Assembly: GCA_903858835.1 (NCBI GenBank)
Contig: CAIOKD010000062.1
Coordinates: forward strand, 1-37,355
Direction of reading: 5' to 3'
Origin: an uncultured Verrucomicrobiota bacterium
GTDB lineage: Bacteria > Verrucomicrobiota > Verrucomicrobiia > Limisphaerales > UBA9464
DNA length: 37,355 bases
Position 1 is the stretch's first letter; each line of letters starts with the position of its first letter. Under the pieces are notes generated by a model. That model saw nothing but the letters and a program-made list of their open reading frames with translations, had not been told where the DNA came from and ran no database searches. The position numbers were made by a program, and so were the translations under genes. Positions 5,929 to 8,341 of this stretch are shown piece by piece.

Positions 5929-6951
5929 TCAACCGCGCCCAAGCGGACCATGTGATCCGTGGGCGGACTCTCCGCGCAGGCGATTGAGTTGGTCGCGCAG
6001 ATCGTCGAGCCCGCCCACCAGAACCGCTCCGATCGATTCGATCTCGGAACGGTAGGCTGCGCTGGCTCGCCCCCCCACCAAGATCCGGGTGGAGGCGGGC
6101 AGCAGACGCCGGAGCAGCTTCAGCTCCAGAGCGAGTGACGGATCGCCGGTGGGGTGCACCACGCTCAACCCGACGGCCTTCGCCCCCTGCTCGGTGGCCA
6201 TTCCGGCGATCTCCTCGGCCGGAAGGCACGCACCGCCGTAGACCACGCGCCAGCCCAGGCCGGTGGAGGCAGCGGCAACGATGATCGCCCCCAGTTCATG
6301 CACCTGTCCGGAGGGCGTGGTGACCACCATCACCGGGGCCCGCGGGTGCAGAGCGATCGGCCGGGCGATGTTCCCCAGGAAGGTACGGAGGACCGACGTG
6401 GCCACGTGCTCCTGCGACACCTTCACCTCGCCGCGCAGCCAACCATCCCCGATGCGCTCGACCAGCGGCACGATCAGCTCAGCCAACAGCCGCATCTGAC
6501 CCATCGCCACGGAGGCTCGTTCCAGCAGGCCCTCCAGGCCCGCAGCGTCGGTCCGCAACACCGCCTGGAAGGCTCCCTCCAGGAAGCCCAAGGTTTCTTC
6601 GGCGGCTGGCGCGCTCCCGACAACGAAGGGCACTCCGATGCCCCCGCCGACGGGCGAGAATTCTCTGGAATGCTCTACGGAGGCGAAACCCCGATCGGAG
6701 CCCGATAGAAGGGAGCGCAGGGAATCGACGGAAAGAGACGCGATGGTTCCGATCGAAAACCCGGCCTCGGTCGCGCGACGCAGCAGAGTCAATCGCTCGA
6801 TGTCCGCGGCCGAATACAGGCGCTGCCTGCCCTCGGAACGGGCCGGACGAACCGTCTGATAGCGTTTTTCCCAAGCCCGAATGACATGGGGACTCAAACC
6901 CGTTTGCTGTGCGACGGTCCTGATCGAATGCTTGACCGCGGGATCACTCAT
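5929..6951 (-). CDS. MerR-type regulator with cobalamin-binding domain (CarH/LitR-like)
   Basis: N-terminal MerR HTH ([44 protein letters not shown]); four-helix bundle with W-x9-EH ([12 protein letters not shown]); B12-binding VHELGA. Start taken as MSDPAVKHS (6951). Confidence 0.9.
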
Positions 6952-7063
6952 TTCCGAACAACGTTGACCGAAAGTTGAACACAAGCAAGACATACGAATC
7001 CAACTTAGACAAAGGATTTCAAAAAGGACCAACCAAACACCAAAAAACCATGAAATCAGGTCT

Positions 7064-7129
7064 TTGTTGAAAATTGTTAGACATTTCGAAATCCATTTGT
7101 TGACATTTCGTCTAAGTTTGAACTAAGTT
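7064..7129. promoter_or_regulatory. Six contiguous 11-bp repeat-like units between the CarH-like gene and the sigma factor gene; contains a TTGACA -35-like element (7100-7105)
   Basis: + strand units: TTGTTGAAAAT|TGTTAGACATT|TCGAAATCCAT|TTGTTGACATT|TCGTCTAAGTT|TGAACTAAGTT. Exact GACATTTCG copies at 7080 and 7102 are 22 bp apart; exact CTAAGTT copies are 11 bp apart. Confidence 0.55.
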
Positions 7130-7189: not shown

Positions 7190-8341
7190 ATGAAATCCAG
7201 AAAGCTCCCCCGCAGCAAGGCGACCTCCCCGTCAAAGCCCTCCAAAGCCACGAAACGGGCCGCCCTCACTCGGGCCACCTCCTCCAAGCGGAAGCTGCAG
7301 CGTAAAAAATCAGCCTCTCGGAAAAACATATCGCCCACCCCTCCGGCTCGCCCGGTGACCGTGCGGTCGATCTCCCAAGCTCCTCGCGCGGCCAAGGGTC
7401 GCGGTGAACCCGTCGCGCAAAAGCCCGGGGTGCTCATGGTCGACGGAATCCCCGTGGTGCCAACCCCGGCCGAGCCGGTCCGCGACCTGTACGAGTCGAA
7501 GAGCGCCCTCAATCTCTACATGCGCGAGGCTGTGGAAGTGCCTCTGCTGACCGTGGCCGAGGAGAATGCCCTGGCTGCGAGGATCAAGAAGGGCGACCCG
7601 GTGGCACGTGAACACATGATCCGGGCGAACCTGCGTCTGGTGGTGAAGATCGCCAAGGATTACGACGGTCTCGGGCTTCCCCTGCTCGATCTGATCAACG
7701 AGGGGAACATGGGCCTGATGAAGGGTGTTGAACGTTTCGACCCCTCCAAGGGCGGCAAGCTCTCCACCTACAGCTCCTGGTGGATCAAGCAATCGATCAA
7801 GCGGGCCCTGGCCAACCAGTCCAAGACCATCCGCCTGCCGGTGCACCTGGTGGACAAGATTTCCCGGATGCGCCGGGTGGCCATGGAACTGCAGGAACTC
7901 TTCGGCCGCGAAGCCACGGACGAAGAGATCGCCGAGGAGATGGAGGTGCCGCTCCGGAAGGTGAGGCTGTGGCGCCGGGCGTCCCTCCGCACCAGCTCCC
8001 TCGACGAATCCCTTGGCGACGAGGATTCCAGCAAGCTGGGCGACGTGGTTCCTGATGAGTCCTGCCAGACCCCCTACGAGGACCTCGAGAGCCGAACCAC
8101 CCATCAACTGCTCCAGAACAGCCTGCACATCCTGGACTCGCGCGAGATGACCATCCTCCGGGAGCGATTCGCCCTCGACGGCGGTCAGGAGAAGACCCTC
8201 GACGAGATCGGGCAGAAGTTCGGCGTCACCCGAGAGCGCATCCGCCAACTCCAGAATATCGCGCTGGCCAAGCTTCGGAAGAAGATCGAAGCGGTCGAGG
8301 CGGTCCGGATCCCGGAGACCGCCGAGGACGGCATCCACTGA
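7190..8341 (+). CDS. RNA polymerase sigma factor, sigma-70/RpoD family, with Lys/Arg/Ser-rich N-terminal tail
   Basis: Region 2: REHMIRANLRLVVKIAKDYDGLGLPLLDLINEGNMGLMKGVERFDPSKGGKLSTYSSWWIKQSIKRAL; region 4: TLDEIGQKFGVTRERIRQLQNIALAKLRK. Confidence 0.95.
   Translation: MKSRKLPRSKATSPSKPSKATKRAALTRATSSKRKLQRKKSASRKNISPTPPARPVTVRSISQAPRAAKGRGEPVAQKPGVLMVDGIPVVPTPAEPVRDLYESKSALNLYMREAVEVPLLTVAEENALAARIKKGDPVAREHMIRANLRLVVKIAKDYDGLGLPLLDLINEGNMGLMKGVERFDPSKGGKLSTYSSWWIKQSIKRALANQSKTIRLPVHLVDKISRMRRVAMELQELFGREATDEEIAEEMEVPLRKVRLWRRASLRTSSLDESLGDEDSSKLGDVVPDESCQTPYEDLESRTTHQLLQNSLHILDSREMTILRERFALDGGQEKTLDEIGQKFGVTRERIRQLQNIALAKLRKKIEAVEAVRIPETAEDGIH

Follow-up and report, generated by a model that had tools for sequence, protein, structure and literature searches.

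A candidate CarH-type operator-promoter at an RpoD-type sigma factor gene in Verrucomicrobiota

The window, a 37,355-nucleotide stretch of DNA from an uncultured Verrucomicrobiota bacterium, carries a carH-like regulator gene and a sigma factor gene that diverge from a 238-bp gap containing tandem 11-bp repeats. Most descriptions of CarH concern the local switching of carotenoid genes, and the locus raises the question of whether these repeats form an operator through which a B12-dependent regulator would control a sigma factor. If so, a relay from CarH to an RpoD-type sigma factor could allow non-phototrophic bacteria to couple a broad transcription programme to green or blue light and to B12 status.

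The repeat array and the sigma factor promoter

The presumed target gene (P0002, positions 7190 to 8341, forward strand) encodes an RpoD/RpoS-type, group 2-like sigma factor with Sigma-70 regions 1.2, 2, 3 and 4, which scores under the curated cut-offs of both the RpoD and the RpoS equivalogs. The primary RpoD is the product of a separate gene (G000:C24) and is 44% identical to P0002. Upstream of P0002, the initial annotation had divided the 66 bp at 7064 to 7129 into six gapless 11-bp units and had placed a TTGACA (7100 to 7105) within unit 4 and a further TTAGAC copy at 7005 to 7010; all of these elements are present. The array yields 80 of 165 pairwise column matches at period 11, making it essentially the top-scoring 66-bp stretch of the gap in a period-11 scan, with a tied maximum beginning at 7063. 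The periodicity, which the initial annotation had proposed to challenge by shuffling, exceeds that of shuffled sequence: none of 500 dinucleotide-preserving shuffles of the gap reached 80 (mean 56.6, maximum 75), and with the best of periods 8 to 14 allowed the array retains P = 0.005 (200 shuffles).

Published CarH repeats follow the 11-bp pattern nnnnTnnACAn, are arranged in tandem over the -35 or -10 element and are often accompanied by pseudorepeats (PMC9304148). The element common to the units in the window is TnnACA, in 11-bp register and on the forward strand, with exact copies in unit 2 (7075 to 7085; TAGACA at 7078 to 7083) and unit 4 (7097 to 7107; TTGACA at 7100). These copies lie 22 bp apart with the degenerate unit 3 (7086 to 7096) between them, and the motif is missing from units 3 and 6. 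Partial matches occur in unit 1 (7064 to 7074; TTGAAA at the TnnACA position), a possible pseudorepeat that is in register and is not kept in the genus, and in unit 5 (7108 to 7118; TCTAAG), a possible pseudorepeat in the promoter spacer that carries TAGACG 11 bp from TCAACA on the other strand. Apart from the window, that reverse-strand pair (TAGAC(G/A), TCAACA) occurs only in the two relatives nearest to it. Full matches in two of the six units and a poor middle unit count against reading the array as an operator. An additional TAGACA at 7006 to 7011 (forward strand) is out of register and has a counterpart (TGGACA) in L011, the closest relative, and nowhere else. Reading the repeats as inverted, with AACTTAGAC at 7002 set against GTCTAAGTT at 7110, was rejected, as this arrangement falls outside the core conserved across the genus.

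The array overlaps a recognizable promoter, as published CarH operators do. The TTGACA of unit 4 is the predicted -35 of the sigma factor gene, and CTAAGT (7123 to 7128, forward strand), 17 bp past it and within unit 6, is the corresponding -10-like element, following the genus pattern CWnnnT. Its first C and last T occur in every one of the 11 genus loci for which a TTGAC(A/G) was scored. Since the genus has an invariant CWnnnT at this position, 17 bp after the -35, unit 6 most likely represents the -10 element of the sigma factor gene and not an operator repeat. The original proposal of a six-unit operator is therefore narrowed: units 2 to 4, and perhaps units 1 and 5, appear operator-like by conservation, and unit 6 is reassigned to the promoter. 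The TTGACA of unit 4 is kept in 10 of 12 genus loci and replaced by TTGACG in L008 and TTGATT in L011; at other loci TTGACA is usually the last member of the array. In many other Verrucomicrobiota (loci L064 to L108) the -10 and start region is covered by another TnnACA pair, situated 19 or 30 bp past the -35, and the genus of the window is without such a pair. Region 2.4 of P0002 has a K where the best-matching SigA proteins have a T (WWIKQSIKRAL vs WWIRQAITRAI), and this residue and the invariant C of the -10 hint at altered -10 recognition by this sigma factor.

The adjacent CarH-like regulator

The regulator gene (P0001, 5932 to 6951, reverse strand, ATG at 6951) encodes a 340-residue protein with a MerR DNA-binding domain, a B12-binding_2 helical bundle and a B12-binding Rossmann domain, as indicated by Pfam matches to MerR_1 (E 2.5e-17), B12-binding_2 and B12-binding. 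Its best solved relatives are the Thermus thermophilus CarH/LitR proteins (E 1e-30). Motifs described for CarH proteins include Wx9EH, RxWE(R/K)RY and the lower-axial motif D/ExHx2G x41 SxT/V x22-27 GG, and Wx9EH with the lower-axial His has been used to separate CarH from CarA (PMC9304148). The recognition helix of P0001, IRAWEKRY, fits the DNA-binding pattern of this set, and its residues R25, W27, E28, R30 and Y31 are invariant in the alignment with relatives. Wx9EH is represented by W171, E181 and H182, invariant in 15 relatives, and the lower-axial motif by H218xxG221-x41-S263xV265-x27-G293 G294 with exact spacings, the sole departure being Q216 for the leading D/E. A signature of light-responsive proteins, GxxW, EH, GxxH and GxxxP (PMC11796333), is likewise found at G168xxW171, E181-H182, G215xxH218 and G240xxxP244, and nearly all CarH signature residues of P0001 are invariant in the 15 relatives.

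Two features count against the operator reading. The first is Leu172, at the position after the signature Trp that holds His132 in T. thermophilus CarH, a residue important for the light response of that protein; none of the other aligned relatives has His there either. This His, which contributes to a bis-His light state, is present in many but not all CarH proteins and is hence no strict requirement (PMC9304148, PMC11796333), and a different photochemical mechanism has been suggested for other photoreceptors (PMC11796333). The second is that the best match of P0001, the NCBI CarH equivalog NF052513, gives 135.5 bits against a cut-off of 400, with a model that is equivalog-level and narrower than the CarH family.

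These features bear on an alternative that we consider unlikely, in which the repeats are the operator of a CarA-like, B12-independent or other-ligand MerR protein that binds the same DNA and has no light switch of its own, acting as a sensor of B12 level or, like class II LitR, through a partner photoreceptor. The leucine in place of the upper-axial His agrees with such a protein, class II LitR proteins act via a separate LOV photoreceptor, and AdoCbl level could by itself drive repression; however, the intact Wx9EH and lower-axial motifs with their invariance in relatives, and the different photochemistry proposed for other photoreceptors, count against this alternative.

Conservation of the array with the sigma factor gene

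Of 50 family genomes, 46 contain the regulator (E <= 0.001), and a divergent sigma factor gene is present at nearly all of the regulator loci examined. The 12 aligned genus loci all keep unit 2 and share the arrangement TTAGACA-N16-TTGACA, with TTGACA 22 bp downstream of TTAGACA; exact listing of TnnACA places units 2 and 4 at the 22-bp spacing in 9 of the 12, and a scan of the genus with N15 finds one locus at 21 bp, its remaining matches being noise. Conservation in the genus thus covers units 2 and 4 with the degenerate unit 3, which reads TGAACC or TGCACC about 10 bp past unit 2, and no other units; in other genera the place of unit 3 is taken by a perfect in-register repeat. Ten genus genomes each have a single copy of the exact core, in every case in the gap at the sigma factor gene, and in the genome of the window the site at 7078/7100 is the only one that matches the operator pattern with 0 mismatches. 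Matches to that pattern with 2 mismatches (10, vs 34 for a reversed-pattern control) were discarded as noise.

Phylogenetic footprinting, which had been put forward as a check on the array, reveals strong conservation of 11-bp TnnACA arrays in relatives beyond the genus. On the strand of the sigma factor gene, 13 loci of other genera contain 24 TnnACA pairs at exactly 11 bp where shuffles predict 0.17, and 21 further loci from named Verrucomicrobiota-type genomes contain 40 where 0.12 are expected; the loci are related by descent, the near-identical genus loci especially so, and the shuffle P-values are accordingly not strict probabilities. The mirror motif has no excess at 11 bp in either set and no pairs at all at that distance in the 21 loci, and the arrays therefore have the strand of the sigma factor gene. 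Six exact pairs, against 0.04 expected, occur in a set of four loci that have a more distant sigma factor and belong to other phyla (Dadabacteria, two Gemmatimonadetes and KSB1, according to their records). The wiring of CarH to a sigma factor is, on this comparative evidence, very probably conserved across many Verrucomicrobiota.

The array is also observed to follow the sigma factor gene. Two genomes, G044 and G043, have a sigma orthologue (76-77% identical) that is unlinked from carH; the array still precedes this sigma gene, with no TnnACA pair before carH. The G044 array reads TAGACA-11-TGAACA-11-TTGACA, with TGAACA 12 bp and TCAACA 23 bp upstream of the TAGACA. No 11- or 22-bp TnnACA pairs were found before nine sigma paralogues and four RpoD copies. 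Such pairs are likewise missing at the closest sigma homologues of three genomes in which carH gave no match (one further homologue, at which the contig ends, lies outside this comparison); with identities of 49-64%, sigma homologues in genomes without carH may be other than true orthologues, and the genomes may be incomplete.

The same comparisons leave little room for the proposal that the repeats serve the sigma factor's own promoter, as tandem -35-like boxes for autoregulation, or another regulator, with carH adjacent by coincidence. It would account for unit 4 being a consensus -35 and the other units resembling it, and the invariant C of the genus -10 and the K in region 2.4 could mean that P0002 recognizes an unusual -10. 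Arrays nevertheless occur also at carH starts, and in carH gaps facing an apparent phytoene desaturase, ECF sigma or fasciclin-type gene (by inspection of neighbours); their phasing and TnnACA element agree with the published CarH repeat, and sigma paralogues are without them, all of which makes this proposal improbable. That the six-unit pattern is chance in an AT-rich intergenic stretch is highly improbable, for even with units 3 and 6 lacking the motif and the CTAAGTT recurrence partly due to the -10, the shuffle tests and the conservation across genera seen in the phylogenetic footprint contradict it.

Predicted mechanism and relation to known systems

With CarH signatures in the regulator, an array that travels with the sigma factor gene and paralogues without arrays, the initial proposal that this is the regulator's operator at the sigma factor gene is upheld as a prediction. 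We consider it highly probable that 7064 to 7129 is a CarH-type operator-promoter at which CarH blocks the sigma promoter in the dark and light releases it, with a second array for autoregulation. In darkness the CarH homologue, as an oligomer carrying AdoCbl, would occupy the tandem repeats along one face of the DNA, with units 2 to 4 at the centre, and would cover the -35 (7100 to 7105), such that RNA polymerase would be excluded. Light would cleave the Co-C bond, the oligomer would fall apart and the sigma factor would be made, turning on its downstream genes. Repression is favoured over activation because the array overlaps the -35 and known CarH proteins repress. We infer the protein-DNA binding, the repression, its dependence on AdoCbl and light, and the sigma regulon from sequence.

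The second array (6965 to 6992, forward strand) comprises TGACCG at 6965, TGAACA at 6976 and AAGACA at 6987, spaced 11 bp apart and 13-35 bp from the start of the regulator gene. A TnnACA at offset 24 from the regulator start (23 in L009) recurs at 10 of 12 genus loci, and other genera have similar TnnACA pairs 5-30 bp from it. This second, weaker array is likely an autoregulatory site, probably mediating negative autoregulation; the earlier suggestion that the regulator perhaps controls itself becomes likelier because this conserved array lies at its start codon.

A wider and more tentative reading, plausible at present, is that in much of Verrucomicrobiota the one main direct target of CarH is an RpoD/RpoS-like sigma factor and, through it, a sigma regulon instead of a single carotenoid operon; the sigma factor may in addition read its own unusual -10, with C in first position, and so amplify the response.

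The predicted operator resembles those of T. thermophilus, Bacillus megaterium and myxobacteria in its 11-bp nnnnTnnACAn repeats and pseudorepeats over a -35 TTGACA, and those systems likewise have a cognate MerR/B12 regulator with Wx9EH and the lower-axial His (PMC9304148). It differs in having two full repeats only, 22 bp apart, and a regulator without His after the Trp; the published systems target carotenoid operons (PMC9304148), whereas here an adjacent RpoD-type sigma gene is apparently the sole strong target. The class II LitR protein PmlR2 of Pseudomonas mendocina is also a repressor of MerR/B12 fold with several sites over a sigma-70 promoter, however its sites are T(G/A)TACA and it has a partner LOV photoreceptor (PMC9758184). 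The available part of an account of Myxococcus xanthus CarA/CarQ describes a light response that similarly combines a MerR/B12-type repressor with a sigma factor; there CarQ is an ECF sigma freed from an anti-sigma factor, and that part contains no direct CarH operator on a sigma gene (PMC8156234).

A combination of regulator and sigma factor exists outside this phylum. In Streptomyces coelicolor, litR reportedly encodes a B12-type light regulator that acts with an ECF sigma factor in light-dependent transcription (work of Takano, 2005). The Streptomyces sigma factor is of ECF type, whereas that of the window is a full RpoD/RpoS-like protein (regions 1.2 to 4) from another phylum, with an operator mapped by conservation. 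A search of the open-access literature found no paper on CarH together with Verrucomicrobia and no account of an RpoD-type sigma gene under a CarH operator that is kept throughout Verrucomicrobiota. The operator type is thus already known, as is the pairing of a B12-type light regulator with an ECF sigma in Streptomyces, and the RpoD-type sigma target appears to be new. The array provides exact bases for mutation, and natural variants of the operator are already at hand.

Several carH homologues have other neighbours. A perfect triple 11-bp TnnACA array, one further triple array within the family, precedes a secreted fasciclin-type ORF (judged from the ORF sequence) in genome G035 (L190:1413-1560, G035:C15), and ORFs of this kind also lie next to carH homologues, in divergent orientation, in L067, L072 and L101, which suggests that a fasciclin-type gene may be a second CarH target in some lineages. 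At L076, L077, L080, L084, L087 and L091, carH homologues are without an RpoD-type sigma gene and the divergent ORFs resemble ECF sigma factors, and CarH thus seems to have become paired with sigma factors of different classes. Elsewhere, neighbours resemble phytoene desaturase, ECF sigma and fatty-acid desaturase genes by inspection of their sequences alone.

Every genus genome has phytoene/squalene synthase-like genes, which provide no specific evidence. Photolyase-family genes are present in 17 of 19 genus genomes, and these genes and the desaturase and ECF sigma neighbours of carH fit a light response without proving one. At the photolyase loci (L122 to L135, e.g., G000:C286) the gene lies just downstream of an apparent signal recognition particle RNA gene. 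A promoter-like GTTGAAC...TTAAG block before the TTG start of the photolyase is common to many members of the genus.
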